Below are positions 26,318 to 38,002 of a DNA stretch of 64,000 bases, one piece after another. A program made the position numbers and the translations under genes. The notes under the pieces were generated by a model. The model was not told the DNA's origin, made no database searches, and saw only the letters and a list, made by a program, of their open reading frames with translations. Positions within the stretch are counted from its first letter, which is position 1. The number at the start of each line of letters is the position of its first letter. Origin of the DNA: Clostridia bacterium (lineage in GTDB: Bacteria; Bacillota; Clostridia; UBA1212; UBA1255); the NCBI GenBank assembly GCA_017517275.1, contig JAFWZX010000011.1, forward strand, positions 1 through 64,000. Direction: 5' to 3'.

Positions 26318-27697
26318 TCAAAATGACAACATTTGAATATTATTGATATATATTATTTCAACACCGTCAAGAGCCTTGCTGTTTTTGCCGAAAGCTGCTT
26401 CAACTGTATCTTTGTTTCCGTAAGGAACCACTATATTTTTAAAATTCAAACGAACCGATTCGTTGATTCTTTTCTCTATGCCCGATACCGCCCGAACTTC
26501 TCCGGTCAAACCGATCTCGCCAAAGAATATGTAATCATGAGGAATTACTTTATTCGTATACGAAGAAATAATCGCAGCAGCAAGTCCAAGATCCGCTGCC
26601 GGTTCATATATTTTAATGCCGCCAATGACGTTCACAAAAGCATCTGCATCATACATTTTAAACCCTGCACGTTTCTCTAAAACAGCTAATAATAAAGATA
26701 CGCGGTTATAATCAAATCCGGTAGACATTCTGCGAGGATTTGTAAGATTTGAATTGGATATTAAAGCCTGAATCTCAACCAGCATCGGTCTTGAACCTTC
26801 CATTGTACATACTACTGCCGTTCCGGGAGTATCAAGAGGTCTTCCTGTCAGCATGGCCTGTGACGGATTTTCAACCTGTACCAATCCAATGTCACGCATT
26901 TCAAACACGCCAATTTCTCTTGTAGATCCAAAACGATTTTTTACACATCTTAAGATGCGGAAGCTCATATGGCGTTCTCCTTCAAAATACAAGACAGTAT
27001 CAACCATATGTTCCAACACACGAGGACCTGCAATACCTCCGTCTTTTGTAACGTGACCTACAATAAATACAGTAATCTTATGTTGTTTTGAAAGTTTCAT
27101 CAAAGTAGCCGTAATCTCTCTTATTTGAGTCACGCTTCCCGGAACAGAATCAATTTCACTGTCATACAGAGTCTGAACAGAGTCTATAATAACGTAGGAT
27201 GGATTCACTTCTTCTATTTGTGATAAAACATCTGAAATCGACGTTTCAGAATAAATGAACAGATTATCTCCTGTAATATTAAGCCTCTGAGCTCGCATTT
27301 TAATCTGAGATTCAGATTCCTCGCCGGAAACGTATAAAACTTTTTTTTGTTTCGAAACACTCCCCGAGAGCATCAACATCAACGTAGATTTACCGATTCC
27401 CGGATCTCCGGCGATCAGTACTAACGATCCGGGAACTATTCCTCCACCTAAAACGCGGTCAAATTCGTTATATCCTGTTTTAACTCTTGAATGAGAAATA
27501 GACTCAATATCCTCGATTTTTTTAGCTTTTTTCATATTAAACGGCGATCTATCCGTAAAAACTTCCTTTGTTTTTTCATTTGTAATTTTCTTTTCTACAA
27601 ACGTATTCCATTCCTGGCACGCAGGACACTTTCCCATATATCCACCGGATTCATAACCGCACTCCTTGCAGAAAAAAACAGTCTTAACCTTTGCCAT
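26318..27697 (-). CDS. radA: DNA repair protein RadA
   Basis: RecA-like branch-migration helicase. It has an N-terminal C4 zinc finger (Cys10, 13, 24, 27: CKECGY and CPACQEW), Walker A GDPGIGKST, the RadA-specific KNRFG motif in CVKNRFGSTREIG, and a C-terminal Lon-protease-like domain with KIYEPAADLGLAAAI. 459 residues is normal. It follows the ClpC-like gene by three bases; clpC-radA is a conserved pair in Firmicutes. Confidence 0.96.
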   Translation of the reverse strand: MAKVKTVFFCKECGYESGGYMGKCPACQEWNTFVEKKITNEKTKEVFTDRSPFNMKKAKKIEDIESISHSRVKTGYNEFDRVLGGGIVPGSLVLIAGDPGIGKSTLMLMLSGSVSKQKKVLYVSGEESESQIKMRAQRLNITGDNLFIYSETSISDVLSQIEEVNPSYVIIDSVQTLYDSEIDSVPGSVTQIREITATLMKLSKQHKITVFIVGHVTKDGGIAGPRVLEHMVDTVLYFEGERHMSFRILRCVKNRFGSTREIGVFEMRDIGLVQVENPSQAMLTGRPLDTPGTAVVCTMEGSRPMLVEIQALISNSNLTNPRRMSTGFDYNRVSLLLAVLEKRAGFKMYDADAFVNVIGGIKIYEPAADLGLAAAIISSYTNKVIPHDYIFFGEIGLTGEVRAVSGIEKRINESVRLNFKNIVVPYGNKDTVEAAFGKNSKALDGVEIIYINNIQMLSF

Positions 27698-27700
27698 ATA

Positions 27701-30304
27701 TTACCCCTTTTTCTGTCTCGTTCCAACGCTCCTGACAACAATGTTGCCATCTTTAACCGATACTGCAATACGGTTTGTTTTATCCATAAGAACACAATCT
27801 GCAATCTTATCTTCAATCTCCGTTTGTATTATTCTCTTAAGCGGTCTTGCTCCATATACAGGATCAAAGCCTTTTTCAGCAACGTACTTCCCTACGTCTT
27901 TACTTATCTTTATCTCAAGGCCGCTGTCTTTTGATCGTTTTACAAGATTAAACAGCATCATATCTGCAATTTGACCGATTTCCGCCTTGTTCAGAGAAGT
28001 GAAAATAAGAATATTGTCTACCCTGTTGATAAATTCCGGCCTAAAAGCTTTCTTCAATTCTTCCTTTATCGCCTTTTCCATATGCTCATGTTTTTGAGCG
28101 TCAGTAGAAGGTCCTGAAAAACCTAAATATTTAGGTGTTGTAATGCTGTTTGCTCCAATATTTGACGTCATAATGATGATTGTATTTTTAAAATCAACCG
28201 TTCTGCCTTTCGTATCAGTCAGCATGCCGTCTTCCAGTATTTGAAGAAGAATATTAAAAATATCAGGATGAGCCTTCTCAACTTCGTCAAAAAGTATAAC
28301 GGAATATGGCTTACTTCTTACAACGTCAGTAAGCTGTGTCGTATCGCTGAAGCCAACGTATCCGGGAGGTGAACCGATAAGTCTTGATACGCTGTGTTTT
28401 TCCATATATTCAGACATATCAAATCGAATCAATGCTTTTTCATCACCGAACAGCGCTTCAGCAAGAGCTTTACTTACTTCTGTCTTGCCCACCCCTGTAG
28501 GGCCTAAGAACATAAATGAGCCAACAGGCTTTTTCGGTTCTTTAATGCCTGTACGTCCTCTTTTTATCGCTTTTGCAACGGCATTGATTGCTTCATTTTG
28601 TCCTACCACACGTTTGTGTATCGTTTTTTCAAGGTTAATTAACTTCTTTTGCTCGTCTTCTGTAAGTCGCGATACCGGAATGCCGGTTTTAACAGATACA
28701 CAAGCCGCAATATTATCACACGTAATATTTCTGCACAGCTTTCTTTGTTGCACGTTATTCGGTACAACAGAAATCAGCTTACTTTCTTTTTCACATTCTT
28801 TATTCAATTGTGCGGCAAGCTCAAATTCGCCTTTTACCATGGCGTCATCACGGCGGGCTTTTAAATCTGATATCTTACGTATCAAGTTGTCTTTTTTATC
28901 AAGAGCCTTTGTATCATCGCCTGTAACCTGCAATAAAGCCGCCGCCTCGTCGATAAGGTCAATTGCTTTATCAGGAAGAAAACGGTCAGAAACATACCTT
29001 TTAGACAGATATACGGCGTATTCCAGCACGTCATCGCTATACATCACGTTGTGATGCTGTTCGTAGAGATGTTTTATGCCCTTCAGAATTGTAACAGTCT
29101 GCTCCTGTGAGGGCTCCTGAACAGAAACAATTTCAAACCGTCTCTCAAGAGCACTATCCTTTTCCATATATTTTCTATACTCTTTCGTTGTAGTAGAGCC
29201 GATGAGTTTAATCTCGCCTCGAGCAAGTGCAGGCTTTAAAATACTGGCTGCATCAAGACTGCCCTCAGACGATCCTGCACCTATTATCGTGTGAATTTCA
29301 TCGATAAAAAGAATAATGTCCGGATTAGAAGAGGCTTCATGAATAACGTGTTTCAGACGTTCTTCAAACTCCCCTCTATATTTCGCGCCAGCCAACATTG
29401 CAGATAAATCAAGCCTGATTATCCGTTTATTTTTCATAATATCAGGAACCTTACCGGCTGCAATATTCTGTGCAAGACCCTCAACAATAGCCGTTTTGCC
29501 AACCCCCGGCTCACCGACCAGACAAGGATTGTTCTTTGTACGTCTGCAGAGAATCTGCATAATACGTGTTATCTCCTGTTCTCGGCATAAAACAGGTATC
29601 TCTTTGCCATCTTTAGCAAGCGCTTTTGCAATTGCGGTCATATCTTTACCAAAGGCCACTATGGCCGGCGGTGCAGTTTGCGCCGCAGCTGTCTCTGCCT
29701 GATTCTGTTGTTGGGCCTGTGCATTTACCTGAACAGTGTGGGCATGCATTTCCAAAGCCAGCTCTTCTAAGCGATTATCACCTTTTTGAGACAATCTTCG
29801 TAGAAAATCATCGCCCTGTAGATATTTAATAATATCAAGAAACATGCTTTGCATATCAACGCCAAGCTCCATCAGGATTCTGATTGCTACACAATCAACC
29901 TCTTTGAACATTGCATATAAAATGTCTTCAGTTCCGACCTTTTCATGTTTGAATATCTTGGCGCTGTCGACAGCCCTTTGTACAACACGCTTTGCTGAAA
30001 TAGAAAAGTCAAGATTATAATTAATATCAGTTTCTGTAGGCAATTGATAATCATCTATATTATCAATCTTCGTCATATGAAGAACCTCAATACGATACGT
30101 CATAAAATCGATATTCTGAGACATAATTATGTTGTAAGCAATACAATCCCGACAAAACAGCATAGCCAACATAATATGCTCTGTTCCAACGTCATCGCTT
30201 CCCATAAGCATTGCTTGTGTTACGCTGTTTTCAATAACCTTTTCAGCTTCTTTAGACAGTGGTAAATCATAGTTATTATATATATTTTGTAAGTAAGAAC
30301 CCAT
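27701..30304 (-). CDS. clpC: ClpC-type Hsp100 ATPase
   Basis: Double-AAA+ unfoldase. It has two Clp-N repeats (residues ~5-165), an unusual Gln/Ala-rich linker at 188-214, then AAA-1 with Walker A GEPGVGKT at 264-271. A coiled middle region carrying a UVR-like motif (FELAAQLNKECEKES) follows, then AAA-2 with GPTGVGKTE. The segment YLGFSG corresponds to the LGF/VGF loop that docks on ClpP, so it should deliver substrates to ClpP. 867 residues is slightly long for ClpC. The usual ctsR-mcsA-mcsB genes are missing; holA is upstream and radA downstream. ClpP is not in the window. Confidence 0.9.
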   Translation of the reverse strand: MGSYLQNIYNNYDLPLSKEAEKVIENSVTQAMLMGSDDVGTEHIMLAMLFCRDCIAYNIIMSQNIDFMTYRIEVLHMTKIDNIDDYQLPTETDINYNLDFSISAKRVVQRAVDSAKIFKHEKVGTEDILYAMFKEVDCVAIRILMELGVDMQSMFLDIIKYLQGDDFLRRLSQKGDNRLEELALEMHAHTVQVNAQAQQQNQAETAAAQTAPPAIVAFGKDMTAIAKALAKDGKEIPVLCREQEITRIMQILCRRTKNNPCLVGEPGVGKTAIVEGLAQNIAAGKVPDIMKNKRIIRLDLSAMLAGAKYRGEFEERLKHVIHEASSNPDIILFIDEIHTIIGAGSSEGSLDAASILKPALARGEIKLIGSTTTKEYRKYMEKDSALERRFEIVSVQEPSQEQTVTILKGIKHLYEQHHNVMYSDDVLEYAVYLSKRYVSDRFLPDKAIDLIDEAAALLQVTGDDTKALDKKDNLIRKISDLKARRDDAMVKGEFELAAQLNKECEKESKLISVVPNNVQQRKLCRNITCDNIAACVSVKTGIPVSRLTEDEQKKLINLEKTIHKRVVGQNEAINAVAKAIKRGRTGIKEPKKPVGSFMFLGPTGVGKTEVSKALAEALFGDEKALIRFDMSEYMEKHSVSRLIGSPPGYVGFSDTTQLTDVVRSKPYSVILFDEVEKAHPDIFNILLQILEDGMLTDTKGRTVDFKNTIIIMTSNIGANSITTPKYLGFSGPSTDAQKHEHMEKAIKEELKKAFRPEFINRVDNILIFTSLNKAEIGQIADMMLFNLVKRSKDSGLEIKISKDVGKYVAEKGFDPVYGARPLKRIIQTEIEDKIADCVLMDKTNRIAVSVKDGNIVVRSVGTRQKKG

Positions 30305-30322
30305 CTTATCCTCCGTGAAAAT

Positions 30323-31294
30323 TTATGCAAATATCATTAGTTCCAGAGCCTGTGAATCTCTGAGAATACCGTTTTTGACAGCTTCATCCAATTCACAGCA
30401 TCTGTTTATTTTATTTGTTAATTCTTCAAATGAAAAACCTTTAGATTGGCGCAACAACTTCTGTACAACAAAAGACATATTAGGAGCCATACCAAGGTTT
30501 GCCAATATTTCCTGGCTTGTCATTTTATTTTGAGAATATAGCTTAACGTCATACAGCATTATCCAATTTCTTGGAATCATAACAAACATCATTGAAATAT
30601 TTTGTTTATCTTCAGAAAGAGAGTTCATAAGAGCTAACGCAGTCTCAATCTTACGATCTGCCAGCGCATCGTTTAAATCAAAAATTTTCGCATTAACGGT
30701 AAGCGTGCATATCTTCTTAACGGTCTCAACATTAATATCCCCGCCCGGTCCTACATATAAACATAACTTCTCTAATTCACTAAGTACGTTTTGCATATCA
30801 TCTACCGTATTTGCAAGTAAGAAAACGGCTGCCTGCATCTGAATAGATACACCTTGAGCTTTAACGTAACTATTGATTATCTTAAGCTTCTCCGGTTGTT
30901 CCATTTTCTCACAAACAACGACCTCTCCTAAGCGCTCGACAATTTTACTTAGCTTCTTACGTTTATCAAAGTCATTTTCTTTGAAAATCAAAAGAAAACT
31001 CTCATCTTCGCTAAGCTGAGTTAAATACTGTGCTATGCTGTCCTCCCTGTCTTGAGAAATTGCTTTTGACGAAAACAAGCCGGTATTAGTAAAAATAATA
31101 CGCTTTTCGTCACCAAAAAGCGAAGGTTGCGCCATATCAGCCAGAACTTCTAACATATCATCAGAGGCAGAATATTGATATACGTTCATATTGTTGCATT
31201 TGAATTTTTTGGCAATACGTCTTGCATTAAGGTCTTTTAAATAATCATTCGACCCATGAAAAACATATAACCTTTTTAGACCTGTCTCAGACAT
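30323..31294 (-). CDS. holA: DNA polymerase III subunit delta
   Basis: Clamp-loader subunit that opens the sliding clamp. The 323-residue length, the N-terminal YVFHGSNDYL, the SLFGDEKRIIF segment (PSLFGxxR-type) and the C-terminal helical collar ending DSQALELMIF are typical. Start ATG behind AGAAGGAG. It begins the holA-clpC-radA unit behind an extended -10 promoter. In Bacillus holA follows comEC; here a nucleoside hydrolase-kinase fusion gene stands between the ComEC-like gene and holA, and rpsT is absent. Confidence 0.9.
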   Translation of the reverse strand: MSETGLKRLYVFHGSNDYLKDLNARRIAKKFKCNNMNVYQYSASDDMLEVLADMAQPSLFGDEKRIIFTNTGLFSSKAISQDREDSIAQYLTQLSEDESFLLIFKENDFDKRKKLSKIVERLGEVVVCEKMEQPEKLKIINSYVKAQGVSIQMQAAVFLLANTVDDMQNVLSELEKLCLYVGPGGDINVETVKKICTLTVNAKIFDLNDALADRKIETALALMNSLSEDKQNISMMFVMIPRNWIMLYDVKLYSQNKMTSQEILANLGMAPNMSFVVQKLLRQSKGFSFEELTNKINRCCELDEAVKNGILRDSQALELMIFA

Positions 31295-31325
31295 GTATAG
31301 CTCCTTCTTGAAATTTCATTACGTT

Positions 31326-31334
31326 ATTATACCA
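31326..31334 (-). promoter_or_regulatory. Extended -10 promoter for holA-clpC-radA
   Basis: TGGTATAAT on the minus strand (TATAAT at 31326-31331), 32 bases before the holA ATG. No good -35 at 16-18 bases, which an extended -10 does not need. The same GTGGTATAAT occurs before the secreted beta-helix gene. Confidence 0.55.
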
Positions 31335-31346
31335 CAAATGCTGATA

Positions 31347-33188
31347 TTATGCATTAATGGAAAACCGCGACGGAATGGATCTTGCCGCACCTTCTTTTGT
31401 TACGGATATCGCAGCTGCAACCGAAGCTGATCTTAGAGATTCTTCAATAGATTGTCCCCTCATTATTCCGGCAAAGAAATATCCTGTATACGTATCTCCC
31501 GCGCCCGTAGTATCCACTGCAGGTCCGAAGTAAGCAGCAGGCACAGTTATCTCTTCATCTCCGATATATGCGACCGCTCCCTTCGTTCCTAATGTCTTTA
31601 TTATATTCGCTCTTGGGAAAACATCCTTAAGAGCCTCTTTGCCTTCTGCAAAAGTGTCTGCCTCTCCCTGATTTAGAATAACCCAGTCAAGCAACGAAAG
31701 AACTCTACTGTTTAGAAGATTCTCCGTTATCGGCGAAGGATTAAGTATAATAATCATACCCTTTTCATGAGCTTTTTCGATTATATAATCTATATTTGAT
31801 ATCTCATTTTGGAGAAGCAAATAATCGCCTTGTGAAAACTCCGCAAGGACAGAATCAATTTCCTGCTCACATATAGTTGTATTGGAACCACCGAAAATAA
31901 TAATACTGTTTTCTCCACTTGGTGTCACCTGAATAATCGCATGTCCGGTAGCCGCAGCCGGATCTGTCAATACGTACGAAACGTTTACGTCATTATCCTG
32001 TAAAAAATCTTTTAACGTCAGACCATCTGAACCTATCTTGCCTCCGTGATAAACATTAGCGCCGGCTTTAGCAAGTGCAACAGACTGGTTAAGTCCCTTA
32101 CCTCCTACGTGAACCGTATAATCTGACGAAGCTATAGTCTGGCCTGCCATTACAAAATCACTTACTTGATATACATGATCAATATTAAGGGAACCGAAAT
32201 TAAGAATTTTAACATCATTTTTACCTGAATTCTGTAAAAATAATGACAATTCTCTACCCAAGGCATCAGCAGAGCAATTTAACTCTATATAAAAGTTATT
32301 ACCCTCACTGCACATTTCAAATTCTGTAGCATAATCCATGTTTTTATCTACAGTCATTTTTCCCGGCCCCGATAATTTATAAATATCGCCTTCACCCTCA
32401 AAAGCAAAGTGAACGGCCGTAAGATCATAGCTTTTATTTACATACGGCTTCATTTTTCGAAATTCGGTATAAAGTTTATACGATAAAGCAACAGGATTAT
32501 TTTCATAATTTTCAGGTATTTTATCCGGCATAAACCCTGAATCAATACTGTACCCAATCTCAAATCCGCTATATATTACAGGAACCGGCATCTTCTCAAC
32601 AAAAGTACACGCCGCAGTACCGTCACAGACAATATTATACTCTCGCTGCTTATTTTCAGTAGATCCTGCCATTGAAATAACCGTATATACCTTCTGAGCA
32701 ATAAGCTCTGTTCCGCTTTGATTACATATATCATCAGCTTCACTTGTAAGTAATTGGGCAATCGTATTGAGAGGTCCTATCGTTACAATAATTACACTAT
32801 TATTATCTGCATCAGCCAGCAGTCTTCTGTACAATCTTACTGCATCCTCAGGCTGTTTGTTACCAACCGGTTCATACTGTGTTGCAAAACGCTCCGATAT
32901 CGTTTTGTTATACGCCATCGTGTCCTCATCACATAAAAAGCCCGGCTTTGAATACATTCCGATAGGAATATCACTGTTACTGCAAAAGTTGTTTATAACG
33001 TCTATCGCACCTGTGCCATACGGATTTGACGTGCAATTGATTATTCCTAAAACCGGAATATCATATTTTTTTGCTAATTTGTGTAATACAACAAGTGCAC
33101 CTACGTCATCGCAATCAGGTCCTATATCCGTATCAACAATTATACTTCTTTTGATTTTTTTTAACGGTTCAAATTTTAATGTATTCAT
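31347..33188 (-). CDS. Nucleoside hydrolase-ribokinase fusion
   Basis: Two enzymes in one 613-residue chain. Residues 1-~320 are an inosine/uridine-type nucleoside hydrolase: the calcium-binding aspartate cluster is DTDIGPDCDD at 19-28. The usual late His-Asp pair appears as Tyr254-Asp255. Residues ~326-613 are a PfkB/ribokinase domain with sugar loop GGKGLNQ (362-368), NPSP at 483-486 and the catalytic DTTGAGDT at 559-566 (base Asp565). Together they would cleave a nucleoside and phosphorylate the released ribose to ribose 5-phosphate. No signal peptide. The gene has its own promoter and stands between a ComEC-like gene and holA. Both domains look intact; substrate specificity is inferred. 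Confidence 0.9.
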   Translation of the reverse strand: MNTLKFEPLKKIKRSIIVDTDIGPDCDDVGALVVLHKLAKKYDIPVLGIINCTSNPYGTGAIDVINNFCSNSDIPIGMYSKPGFLCDEDTMAYNKTISERFATQYEPVGNKQPEDAVRLYRRLLADADNNSVIIVTIGPLNTIAQLLTSEADDICNQSGTELIAQKVYTVISMAGSTENKQREYNIVCDGTAACTFVEKMPVPVIYSGFEIGYSIDSGFMPDKIPENYENNPVALSYKLYTEFRKMKPYVNKSYDLTAVHFAFEGEGDIYKLSGPGKMTVDKNMDYATEFEMCSEGNNFYIELNCSADALGRELSLFLQNSGKNDVKILNFGSLNIDHVYQVSDFVMAGQTIASSDYTVHVGGKGLNQSVALAKAGANVYHGGKIGSDGLTLKDFLQDNDVNVSYVLTDPAAATGHAIIQVTPSGENSIIIFGGSNTTICEQEIDSVLAEFSQGDYLLLQNEISNIDYIIEKAHEKGMIIILNPSPITENLLNSRVLSLLDWVILNQGEADTFAEGKEALKDVFPRANIIKTLGTKGAVAYIGDEEITVPAAYFGPAVDTTGAGDTYTGYFFAGIMRGQSIEESLRSASVAAAISVTKEGAARSIPSRFSINA

Positions 33189-33218
33189 AACGTACTACCT
33201 CGCTAAAGCCTTTTTTAA

Positions 33219-33247
33219 AGTATACAAAATTCTGCCTTTTGGTGCAA
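33219..33247 (-). promoter_or_regulatory. SigA-type promoter for the nucleoside hydrolase-ribokinase gene
   Basis: On the minus strand TTGCAC (33242-33247), exactly 17 bases, TATACT (33219-33224). It lies just downstream of the ComEC-like stop codon and about 30 bases before the ATG. Confidence 0.6.
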
Positions 33248-33258
33248 CAGTTCAGCTA

Positions 33259-34548
33259 TCATTTCTGATATTTACGAGACTGTTTTTTTTTACATAATAT
33301 GACAGCGATACCAATAAAAACGTATATTATTACGACAACACTTGCCTTGTTTATGCTAATTCCGGTCACACCAAGAGGAGGAGGTGCTTTTGACGCAACA
33401 AAAGCAATCTTACTTAAACATACAGTAAAAAAAGCACACAATGCTCCACTAATTTTTCCTATAAAGTTAAGTAACGGTATCTTATTTACAAAACCGCATA
33501 CGTATCCTGTAATACACACTATGCCGGATATGAAGCCGGCCACGGAATTAATCACAATCCCTATCAACGATATTTTTCCGAACAAGTACATTAATAGCGG
33601 AATAAGCCCTATATTGACGGCAACACCCGTTTTGATGCCTGATAATTTCTTGCTATTTATGGGAATCAACGGTTCTATATATGATATAGACAGTACCGCT
33701 GCATAACTAAGCAAAAAGCCAACTGAATATATTACATAAGGATTATGTAATAACTGTATAATCGCAGCAAAATATATACCGTTAATCGTAAGAGACGGTC
33801 TGTCGAACACTTTACTGCACTGCTTATATGTAAACATTAAAACAGCTCTTACAACGCTGTGGGAAAAATCAGTTAAAAACATAAAAAACACGGCAGCAAG
33901 TATCTTTAATATACATCTTACCTTATAACCCATATATCGATTACGAGATACTGCTGTTACAGGTTTCATTATAATTGAAACGTGCATTCCCGAAACAGCC
34001 AGCACGTGCAAAATCCCGGCATCGCTAAAGCTGTCTTTAACAGTCTGATCCATTATTATATCAGATCCTGTCATTACTGCATAAGCTATTCCTGCGTATT
34101 CTGCCCCCATAACGTCTACGAGATTACATTTGATATTATACCGAAGCGTTGCAAAGAAACGTGTGACGTTAATGCTCCGTCTACTGTCATCAAAGTGTAT
34201 TTCATCCCACCTGCAATACCCACTGTATGCTACCTCTTTTGACATAAGATACCGTCCATAATCATTGTCTTCGACGTTTTGAATCATACACTCCAGGTAT
34301 ACGTCAGTGGCACATTCCGCTTTTTTCTTTATCTTATCGTCACACTCGCCAAATATTGTCAGTAATGCTTTTTTTCCGTCGGAGGTAACCAGTACATAGT
34401 CATCCGACTTATTCCATGTCGCCTTGTATATGTATCCCTTGTTCGAGGGTGCTTTATATGAATCAAAATCAATTAAAGCACACCGTACAAAGGCAAACAC
34501 AACAGACAATATACAAACAATCAAATATCCATTTTTTTTAAGAATCAC
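33259..34548 (-). CDS. ComEC/Rec2-type competence membrane protein lacking the nuclease domain
   Basis: The N-terminal two membrane segments and OB-like DUF4131 part are followed by the competence-domain signature GILHVLAVSGMHVSII near residue 180 and about seven membrane helices. The protein stops at 429 residues. Full ComEC is usually ~700-800 residues with a C-terminal metallo-beta-lactamase domain, which is absent here, and no separate beta-lactamase ORF follows. It should form a DNA-uptake channel if functional. The start overlaps the spoVAE stop by four bases (ATGA), so it appears to be part of the spoVA unit. Confidence 0.85.
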   Translation of the reverse strand: MILKKNGYLIVCILSVVFAFVRCALIDFDSYKAPSNKGYIYKATWNKSDDYVLVTSDGKKALLTIFGECDDKIKKKAECATDVYLECMIQNVEDNDYGRYLMSKEVAYSGYCRWDEIHFDDSRRSINVTRFFATLRYNIKCNLVDVMGAEYAGIAYAVMTGSDIIMDQTVKDSFSDAGILHVLAVSGMHVSIIMKPVTAVSRNRYMGYKVRCILKILAAVFFMFLTDFSHSVVRAVLMFTYKQCSKVFDRPSLTINGIYFAAIIQLLHNPYVIYSVGFLLSYAAVLSISYIEPLIPINSKKLSGIKTGVAVNIGLIPLLMYLFGKISLIGIVINSVAGFISGIVCITGYVCGFVNKIPLLNFIGKISGALCAFFTVCLSKIAFVASKAPPPLGVTGISINKASVVVIIYVFIGIAVILCKKKQSRKYQK

Positions 34549-34922
34549 TTTTTACTTTTCGGTTTTGAAACGATTGAAGCGATTAAGCCGAAAACGACTG
34601 CCATTACCACACCTGTCGCCACGTCAGGCAGTCCGCCTGTAAATATTCCTCTAAACCCGTATTCATCAATGCTGTTAAAGACACCTTTACATAATGAATA
34701 ACCGAATCCTGTCAGAGGAATTCTGGCTCCGTAATCAGCAAATTCAACTAAATAATCGTATAAGCCGACTGCTGTAAGAAATACGCCACATACTACAAAG
34801 AGAACAAGAATCCTTGCAGACGTCATTTTTGTTTTATCTATTAATACCTGAGCTATAACACATATTAAACCGCCAACCACAAAAGCGCACAGATATTGTA
34901 CAAAATAATCCATATAAGACAC
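34545..34922 (-). CDS. spoVAE: Stage V sporulation protein AE
   Basis: A 125-residue membrane protein with about four hydrophobic segments. YGARIPLTGFGYSLCKG is the block shared by SpoVAC and SpoVAEb proteins. SpoVA proteins sit in the spore inner membrane and move Ca-dipicolinic acid into the forespore and out at germination. It follows spoVAD by eight bases. The last residues are basic (SKPKSKK). Confidence 0.92.
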   Translation of the reverse strand: MSYMDYFVQYLCAFVVGGLICVIAQVLIDKTKMTSARILVLFVVCGVFLTAVGLYDYLVEFADYGARIPLTGFGYSLCKGVFNSIDEYGFRGIFTGGLPDVATGVVMAVVFGLIASIVSKPKSKK

Positions 34923-34930
34923 ATCCTTTC

Positions 34931-35953
34931 TTATATTTCAATTGATATCCCGTGAGATATTGCAAGAAGGTCTTCCCCTTGCTTTACCATCACGGGGCTT
35001 ATTAAAGCACCCGTTGCCACAAATAATACACGTCTGAGATTGAGATTTTTCAATAGCTTGTATATATAACTTGTGAAAACTGCCGCGGCACAACCGCAAC
35101 CGCTTCCGCCTGATTTTGTATCTTGACTTGCCGAGTCAAAAATCATCTTTCCGCAATCATTATGCCGCGTGGAAATATCATTACCGTGCATACTCATAAT
35201 TTCTAGAAGTATTTTACTGCCCGTATAGCCAAGGTCTCCCGTCAAAATCAGATCATAGTAATCAGGAGTTCTCGATAAATCTCTTAAATGACTTAATATA
35301 GTAGAAGCACAAGCCGGCGCCATTACTGCTCCCATATTGTTAACGTCATTAATTTTATAGTTTTCGATTTTACCGATTGTCACAGATTCTATATACGGCT
35401 TTAATTCCTCAACTGCACCGCTTTTGTTGCATGATAAATATACTGCGCCTGAAGCAGTCACCGTCCATTGTGACGTAGGTGTACGTTGACCTCCTAATTC
35501 CAACGGAAATCTATACTGCTTTTCCGCAGAACAGAAATTACTTGATGTAATTGCAATAGTATCTGTCATTGCATTGCTATCCATGCACAAACTTGCGCAA
35601 AGCATTGACTCTGCCATCGTAGAACAGGCCCCGTACAATCCTAAGAAAGGAACGTTACTGTTCTTAAGCCCAATAGCACTGGCCATGCATTGATTAAGCA
35701 AATCTCCCGAAAACACACAATCGATTTGTTTTGTATCCAGCGAGATTTTTCCCATAAGCTTATTGAAAGTTGCCTCGATATAATGAGCCTCTCCTTTTTC
35801 CCACGTATCTTCCCCGTAATCTTCACGTTCTACCTGGTCAAAATATTCTCCTAAAGGACCTTCCTTTTCCCGTGGACCTACAATACACGCAGTCTCATTT
35901 ATATATATTCTCCCGGATAATTTATATGATTGTTTTCCGAATTTTACTGCCAT
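34931..35953 (-). CDS. spoVAD: Stage V sporulation protein AD
   Basis: Soluble thiolase-fold protein that binds dipicolinic acid and associates with the SpoVA channel. Segments seen are LGLYGACSTMAESM (corresponding to the thiolase nucleophile region) and GGSGCGCAAAVF near the C-terminus. About 340 residues. I place the start at the ATG at 35953 (MAVKFGKQSY), six bases after GAGGTG; the earlier GTG is part of that ribosome site. It follows spoVAC closely. Confidence 0.95.
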   Translation of the reverse strand: MAVKFGKQSYKLSGRIYINETACIVGPREKEGPLGEYFDQVEREDYGEDTWEKGEAHYIEATFNKLMGKISLDTKQIDCVFSGDLLNQCMASAIGLKNSNVPFLGLYGACSTMAESMLCASLCMDSNAMTDTIAITSSNFCSAEKQYRFPLELGGQRTPTSQWTVTASGAVYLSCNKSGAVEELKPYIESVTIGKIENYKINDVNNMGAVMAPACASTILSHLRDLSRTPDYYDLILTGDLGYTGSKILLEIMSMHGNDISTRHNDCGKMIFDSASQDTKSGGSGCGCAAAVFTSYIYKLLKNLNLRRVLFVATGALISPVMVKQGEDLLAISHGISIEI

Positions 35954-35963
35954 AGAAATCACC

Positions 35964-36440
35964 TCATATTTTCACCAGATAATATATTAATCCCACAAGA
36001 ACGCTAGAGGCTGTTCCATATACCAACACAGGTCCTGCAACTTGAAACATTTGTGCACCTACGCCTAATATCAAACCCTCGCTCCTATACTCCATTGCAG
36101 GAGACACAACAGAGTTTGCAAAACCTGTTATAGGAACGATACTTCCTGCGCCTGCAACAGTACCGATACAGTCATAAACATTAAGTGCTGTCAGTAGTGA
36201 ACCTAAAAAGACCATAAAAAGCACGGTCAGCGCACCAATACTCTTCTCATCTAATATTCCTATAACTCTGACTACAGGCTTTGATGCCAATAAATCACTG
36301 TATCCTTGTGCAATGGTGCATATCAATCCTCCGAAAATAAACGCCATTATACAATTTTTAACAATGTTTGATTTACCGCTGTTGCTGTCACTTATTTTTT
36401 GGTATTGCTTTACCGTTAATTTATCAAGATTATCACTCAT
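35964..36440 (-). CDS. spoVAC: Stage V sporulation protein AC
   Basis: 158-residue membrane protein with a cytoplasmic N-terminus and four or five hydrophobic segments. VPITGFANSVVSPAMEY is the SpoVAC/AE signature. SpoVAC is a mechanosensitive-type channel for dipicolinic acid. It is the first spoVA gene here; spoVAA and spoVAB are missing, as in other Clostridia. A possible forespore promoter lies before it, overlapping the sigF stop. Confidence 0.95.
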   Translation of the reverse strand: MSDNLDKLTVKQYQKISDSNSGKSNIVKNCIMAFIFGGLICTIAQGYSDLLASKPVVRVIGILDEKSIGALTVLFMVFLGSLLTALNVYDCIGTVAGAGSIVPITGFANSVVSPAMEYRSEGLILGVGAQMFQVAGPVLVYGTASSVLVGLIYYLVKI

Positions 36441-36466
36441 ATAAGCCTCCGTATAGAATATACGAT

Positions 36467-36497
36467 TATTCTTTACGTTTGTGACGGTTTATATTCA
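36467..36497 (-). promoter_or_regulatory. Possible forespore (SigG/SigF-type) promoter for spoVAC-D-E
   Basis: On the minus strand TGAATA (36492-36497), which overlaps the sigF stop codon, is followed by 18 bases and AAGAATA (36467-36473). The -35 equals the SigG consensus as known from Bacillus; the -10 matches CATACTA at only four of seven positions. An inverted repeat AGAATA-N6-TATTCT (36455-36472) overlaps it. Confidence 0.35.
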
Positions 36498-37199
36498 GAT
36501 ATCTGAGTCAAAGCCTTTTTTTATTTTTTCAAGTATTTTTTTCTCTTTTCTGCAGACCTGTACCTGTGTCATCCCCATTACCTTTGCAACCTCAAGTTGA
36601 GTCATTTCTCTGTAATATCTGAGAACAATTAGTTGCTTTTCTTTTTCTTCCAGCTTGTTCAAAGCACCTCTTACTGACAAAACGTCAAGTAAATTCTCTT
36701 CTTCGACATTTTGCACCCTTAAGTTTTCATGCTCATCTATTGAATCACACGTAAGCTTTACTTCAAGTGCCGTTATAACTTCGTCATTATCAAGACACAA
36801 AGCGCTTGCAATCTCACATATACCGGGTTCTTTACCTGTTTTGTTTTTATGATCATCAATATAGTTTCGGATCTTTGCGTTATTACTCTTAACAGTTCTT
36901 GATATTTTAATAATCCCGTCATCTCTCAGAAAACGACGTATCTCACCGGCAATCATAGGCACCGCATACGTTGAGAAACAAACGTCATATGATACGTCAA
37001 AATTTCTAATTGCTTTTATTAAGCCGATAGATCCAAGCTGATATAAATCGTCCATATCCGTACCTTTGCCTACGTAGCGTTTTACAACACTCCATACCAG
37101 TCCGGTATTATTCTCAACAATAGTGGCAAGAGCATGATCATCACCTTGCTGTGCAAGACATATAAGTCTGCGCATAGCATCACTATCAATATGCTCCAT
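36495..37199 (-). CDS. sigF: RNA polymerase sporulation sigma factor SigF
   Basis: Forespore-specific sigma factor. Region 2 (TDMDDLYQLGSIGLIKAIRNFD, then FSTYAVPMIAGEIRRFLRDDG), region 3 and region 4 (EKEKQLIVLRYYREMTQ... and helix-turn-helix MTQVQVCRKEKKIL) are complete in 234 residues. It is third in spoIIAA-spoIIAB-sigF, the canonical order, so its activity should be held by SpoIIAB and released by dephosphorylated SpoIIAA. It is 12 bases after spoIIAB. Confidence 0.96.
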   Translation of the reverse strand: MEHIDSDAMRRLICLAQQGDDHALATIVENNTGLVWSVVKRYVGKGTDMDDLYQLGSIGLIKAIRNFDVSYDVCFSTYAVPMIAGEIRRFLRDDGIIKISRTVKSNNAKIRNYIDDHKNKTGKEPGICEIASALCLDNDEVITALEVKLTCDSIDEHENLRVQNVEEENLLDVLSVRGALNKLEEKEKQLIVLRYYREMTQLEVAKVMGMTQVQVCRKEKKILEKIKKGFDSDI

Positions 37200-37211
37200 A
37201 AAAACCTCCTG

Positions 37212-37658
37212 TTATTGAAGATTTTTAATCAGCTTTAACATTGTGATTTTTGTACCCTCGTCAGGCCTTGATACTACATCCATTTTATCTGTAAAAGATT
37301 CCATAATTGTAAAGCCCAGACCTGAACGTTCTGTATCAGGTGACGTAGTATACATAGCTTGTCTTGCAAGCTCGACGTTCTCTATACCGCGACCGTAATC
37401 TTCTATTGTTATTTCAATACCGCAGTCAAATAAAACGCAGTGAATATGTATTTTATTTTCACCGTTTTGATACTTCTTTCCACTGTATGCATGGACAACA
37501 CAATTAGTTACAGCCTCACTTACAGCAGTCTTTATATCGGCTATCTCATCTACGGTAGGATCAAGCTGGGAAGCAAATACTCCTACAACACTTCTGGCAA
37601 AACCTTCATTATTTGATTTTGCAAGAAAATCCATTGAAAATTCATTTATTCTTCTCAT
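37212..37658 (-). CDS. spoIIAB: Anti-sigma F factor / serine kinase SpoIIAB
   Basis: GHKL-fold protein that binds SigF and phosphorylates SpoIIAA. The N-box (EAVTNCVVHAY), G1 box (DYGRGI) and G2 box (RSGLGFTIME) are all present in 148 residues. Start ATG behind AAGGATGATTTG. It lies between spoIIAA and sigF in the standard sporulation operon. Confidence 0.96.
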   Translation of the reverse strand: MRRINEFSMDFLAKSNNEGFARSVVGVFASQLDPTVDEIADIKTAVSEAVTNCVVHAYSGKKYQNGENKIHIHCVLFDCGIEITIEDYGRGIENVELARQAMYTTSPDTERSGLGFTIMESFTDKMDVVSRPDEGTKITMLKLIKNLQ

Positions 37659-37675
37659 AGCAAATCATCCTTCCT

Positions 37676-38002
37676 TTATACTGCATCATTAATATCGTCG
37701 CATATCTTGGCAAATTGAAACACACCGGAAATCTCAAGTATTTTTTTAACAGTCTTGTTTGAGCACATTATGTAAATACTCCCCCCTACGGCTTTTACTT
37801 TCTTATACCTGCCAACTATCATGCCAATGCCGGAGCTGTCCATAAACGTCAGCTTGTTAAAATCAAACACAACGTTGTGAACGTACGGCTTCATTATTTC
37901 ACTATCTATACGATAGCGAATCTCATCTGTGTAATGGTGATCAAGTTCACCGGCAATTCTTACAATCAGAGTGTTGCCGGTATGAGCTAACCCGAATTTC
38001 AT
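37676..38002 (-). CDS. spoIIAA: Anti-sigma F factor antagonist SpoIIAA
   Basis: STAS-domain protein. The phosphorylated serine is Ser57 in FMDSSGIGMIVGRYK, in the usual position. In the unphosphorylated form it displaces SigF from SpoIIAB. 108 residues. It is the first gene of the operon; the 93-base gap after whiA holds a 16-bp palindrome but no convincing SigH -35. Confidence 0.96.
   Translation of the reverse strand: MKFGLAHTGNTLIVRIAGELDHHYTDEIRYRIDSEIMKPYVHNVVFDFNKLTFMDSSGIGMIVGRYKKVKAVGGSIYIMCSNKTVKKILEISGVFQFAKICDDINDAV

Follow-up and report, generated by a model that had tools for sequence, protein, structure and literature searches.

Nucleoside hydrolases (NHs) free ribose, which needs a ribokinase (PMC8910321). 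In bacteria, the genes for these two functions can be adjacent, as in the clusters around RK9NH-like NHs (PMC6278475). The fusion described here unites the same two functions, which in those clusters reside on separate proteins. The nearest known architectural parallel is the eukaryotic PsuG-PsuK, in which a pseudouridine glycosidase and a PfkB kinase likewise place a nucleoside-cleaving domain and a PfkB-type kinase in one chain (PMC9247573). However, its glycosidase is unrelated, its substrate is a different one and its reactions run in reverse, with phosphorylation preceding cleavage. We found no published description of an NH–ribokinase fusion in a search of mainly open-access literature.

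The window analyzed here is a stretch of 64,000 nucleotides from a Clostridia bacterium (assembly GCA_017517275.1, contig JAFWZX010000011.1). A single open reading frame at 31347–33188 on the minus strand encodes a protein of 613 amino acids, starts with ATG and has zero internal stops. A plausible ribosome-binding site, GAGGTAG, is present 5′ of this ATG, in the region GCGAGGTAG (33189–33215, minus strand). Pfam assigns IU_nuc_hydro to residues 16–226 (45.4 bits, cutoff 34.2) and PfkB to residues 328–607 (156 bits). The AlphaFold model of the whole chain has a pLDDT of 93.3 and a pTM of 0.91. The preliminary description of this DNA had proposed that an NH is joined to a ribokinase with no stop or frameshift between them, and the uninterrupted frame of 613 codons bears this out. 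Both of the halves that it named are present, although the NH half matches Pfam weakly and the domain boundary had to be adjusted to about residues 320–326. The catalytic residues expected in both halves are kept (DTDIGPDCDD at 19–28, SYDLTAV at 253–259 and DTTGAGDT at 559–566). Judged from its sequence, the protein is a real NH–ribokinase fusion with conserved residues at both catalytic sites. Each half is an ordinary, well-known kind of enzyme; what is new is the arrangement of the two domains.

The junction is short. A linker of around seven residues (NSGKNDV, residues 320–326; 32211–32231, minus strand) connects the last helix of the NH domain (307–319) to the first strand of the ribokinase (RK) domain (327–331). 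The gene comes from a draft genome that is broken into 38 contigs and 80% complete, and another genome of the same genus, G008, has at this site an NH with no RK. Both observations would fit an artefact of assembly or sequencing that joins two separate genes. Against this, the fusion junction is repeated in G004, an independently assembled genome from another genus of the same family. There, a single open frame covers residues 127–610 and runs through the junction, with 64% identity. The N-terminal part of the G004 protein (to about residue 124) sits at the edge of another contig, and the two contigs that carry the parts likely adjoin. A sequencing error that removes a stop codon between the halves had been named as something that would undo the fusion; the same one-frame junction in G004 speaks against it. 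Inspection of the junction sequence showed no ATG, GTG or TTG at the domain boundary in either genome, which also argues against two separate genes. The identical junction in G004 thus indicates that the fusion is not an assembly or sequencing error, and we consider an artefact extremely improbable.

The next in-frame ATG past the junction is codon 347, already within the RK domain. Close stand-alone relatives of the RK half start with MKILNYGS, and the position of their methionine is occupied by V326 in the fusion and by proline in G004. Since the boundary offers no start codon and this methionine is replaced, it is unlikely that the RK half is made separately. An internal translation start for the RK half was considered and ruled out, as the boundary is without a start codon in both genomes. 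Third codon positions vary most in both halves (58% vs 17–30% at positions 1 and 2), as expected for selection at the protein level.

The NH-type domain covers residues 1–319 (32232–33188, minus strand). It resembles the described NHs of PF01156 (Crithidia IU-NH, RihA/B/C and T. vivax IAG-NH) in fold, in the Asp cluster, and in the Glu, Asn and last Asp of the Ca2+/ribose site. In contrast to these, it shares 13–20% identity with solved NHs, has an Asp cluster lengthened by two inserted residues (DTDIGPDCDD), carries Tyr before the last Asp and has a kinase attached. All 19 aligned NH sequences match PF01156 at an E value of 0.1 or better, and D21, D27, D28, E183, N185 and D255 are invariant in all of them. 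These six align with D10, D14, D15, E166, N168 and D242 of Crithidia IU-NH, which we take to be its Ca2+ and ribose residues. Conserved residues of the Asp cluster also include D19, as well as D25 and C26, two further positions that are invariant in the subfamily. The model of this half has a pLDDT of 94.4, and its best matches in the fold comparison are NHs (Z 24–28); groups I, II and III tie there, and XopQ ties with the active NHs. The N-terminal half is a divergent NH.

The mark of group I, a histidine before the last Ca2+-binding Asp (His241), is absent; Y254 is found here, and Tyr or mostly Trp in the relatives. By this residue, the NH half is not group I. The Tyr-Asp in place of His-Asp had been pointed out in the preliminary description as a hint of altered specificity. 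The tyrosine is indeed there, but it is not unique to this protein: all six members of the NH clade of the fusion share it, and Trp predominates in the wider subfamily. The criteria for group II are a Trp before the last Asp, a Trp in the β3–α3 loop and two extra helices. In group II NHs, the Trp at this position stacks on the leaving base and thereby activates it (PMC8910321). Loss of the histidine thus need not mean loss of activity. NH-fold proteins without nucleosidase activity do exist, namely XopQ and Sde_0182 (PMC8910321). By analogy, the NH domain here might be catalytically dead or bind ribosyl groups, serving to regulate or anchor the kinase. The absent leaving-group His, the tie of XopQ with active NHs and a weak Pfam match of the NH half to Sde182_NH-like (E 0.003–0.01) are compatible with such a role. 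However, the Ca2+/ribose residues, including the Glu and the Asn, are invariant across the subfamily, and G008 retains a stand-alone homologue whose codon positions vary as expected under selection on the protein. We therefore regard a dead or purely binding module as improbable.

The RK domain spans residues 327–613 (31350–32210, minus strand). D337, G362, G363, K364, N367, E462 and D565 match ribose or catalytic positions of E. coli RK. Six of them (D337, G363, K364, N367, E462 and D565) align with D16, G42, K43, N46, E143 and D255, presumably the ribose contacts of that enzyme. The GAGD catalytic motif is contained in DTTGAGDT. The structure nearest to the model is that of E. coli RK in complex with ribose and ADP (Z 39.5, rmsd 1.9 Å over 288 residues). 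The half thus resembles RbsK (PF00294, TIGR02152) over the whole domain, in the ribose contacts, in DTTGAGDT and in fold. It differs in being C-terminal to an NH domain, in having no start codon of its own and in its score: the best NCBIfam match is ribokinase (TIGR02152) at 210 bits, below the equivalog cutoff of 299.65. No other PfkB-type match at an E value of 1e-3 was found in this draft genome (80% complete, 38 contigs).

The single frame, the recurrence of the fusion in a second genus, the catalytic residues kept in each half and the two modeled folds make it likely that the protein is a single bifunctional chain, predicted to hydrolyze a riboside and then to convert the ribose to ribose 5-phosphate; the prediction extends to activity, substrate, the order of the steps and any benefit of proximity. 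The N-terminal domain, probably Ca2+ dependent, would hydrolyze the N-glycosidic bond of a ribonucleoside or of another β-D-ribofuranoside. The C-terminal domain would use ATP to phosphorylate the freed ribose, and the formation of ribose 5-phosphate would keep the ribose in the cell. The preliminary description had also proposed channelling; it is rather unlikely, in our view, that ribose is passed between the two sites and phosphorylated before it can diffuse away. Several points count against the bifunctional reading: the RK score below the NCBIfam ribokinase cutoff, the NH of G008, which is without an RK, the NH-fold proteins without nucleosidase activity, and the setting of several NH relatives, which sit among apparent glycoside hydrolase and sugar-transport genes, mostly recognized by eye, and not among nucleoside genes.

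The same two-step chemistry could instead serve a natural substrate other than a common nucleoside, such as a modified nucleoside or a ribose-containing plant or microbial glycoside. NH relatives adjoin GH4-like and rhamnosidase-like genes and sugar ABC transporters (by eye), and one adjoins an ADP-ribosylglycohydrolase (Pfam-confirmed). The site is conserved on its ribose side; on the base side, Tyr or mostly Trp stands in place of His. However, group II NHs that are truly purine specific have aromatic residues at this position as well (PMC8910321), and the surroundings of the fusion gene itself (sporulation genes, comEC, holA) are no carbohydrate operon. We hold such a substrate to be a tentative alternative, possible but less probable than not. 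For the bifunctional reading, the interest of the fusion is that it brings successive steps of hydrolytic riboside salvage together and may help to identify the substrate of an uncharacterized NH subfamily. A natural NH–kinase fusion is also a test case for whether tethering helps.

The fusion is rare. The preliminary description had called the architecture at least rare, and this stands: one-frame fusions were found in 2 of 16 genomes of the family (the window's own and G004), and no others in samples of 391 genomes of the class and 398 of the phylum, which overlap and were scored for no more than three candidates per genome. Among plasmids, zero records covered 80% of the fusion query. The NH subfamily itself is present in 18 of the 391 class genomes at an E value of 1e-15. 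Separate NH and RK genes are found side by side in several Clostridia, always with the NH first, as in the domain order of the fusion. In G326, the NH that directly adjoins the RK belongs to the subfamily of the fusion. The pairs of G035, G410, G197 and G429, from a genus of small genomes, have a canonical NH, and that of G006, from the family of the window, has a third NH type (DTDAYNEIDD). In G099, the two genes share a cluster and are about 2.4 kb apart. That RK genes are repeatedly paired with NHs of different types speaks for a functional link, which the fusion in turn backs, and such pairs are an obvious precursor. The fusion gene most likely arose by the joining of an adjacent NH–RK gene pair.

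In the window, the gene is located between a ComEC-like gene upstream (33259–34548, minus strand) and holA, encoding DNA polymerase III delta, downstream (30323–31294, minus strand). The co-directional run at 26318–38002 reads spoIIAA-spoIIAB-sigF-spoVAC-spoVAD-spoVAE-comEC-[NH-RK]-holA-clp ATPase-radA. Involvement with the sporulation genes upstream was considered as an explanation and rejected. In the inspected family genomes outside the genus of the window, the ComEC-like frame directly abuts holA with no NH–RK gene between them, and G004 and G001 have their homologues in other contexts. In G008, the NH between comEC and holA ends where the NH half of the fusion ends, and no remnant of an RK is visible at that site; the pairing is thus not essential. 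In the trees, the RK half from the window's genome pairs with that from G004 (support 99/96), and stand-alone RKs of genus g4 are placed beside this pair; among the NHs, those of G008 and G004 cluster together (87/89). Probably the fusion arose once and G008, the sister genome, later lost its RK half; the clustering of the G008 and G004 NHs provides weak support for this history. Alternatively, the fused gene may have been transferred between lineages.

Related arrangements are present at other loci. A close RK relative is fused to an endonuclease/exonuclease/phosphatase domain in G010 (L011:1468–3303, 612 amino acids); in other genomes of that genus (L005, L007, L008, L010), the two are separate adjoining genes. 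In G264, a LacI-type regulator is fused to a ribokinase-like kinase (L083:1561–3432), and an NH gene adjoins. In G130, NH genes from the same broad subfamily stand in tandem, three at L123:2–2634 and two at L124:3500–5367. A second NH in the genome of the window (contig C19, L127:6762–7829), near apparent mutS and mutL genes, is 35% identical and has Trp in place of the Tyr.
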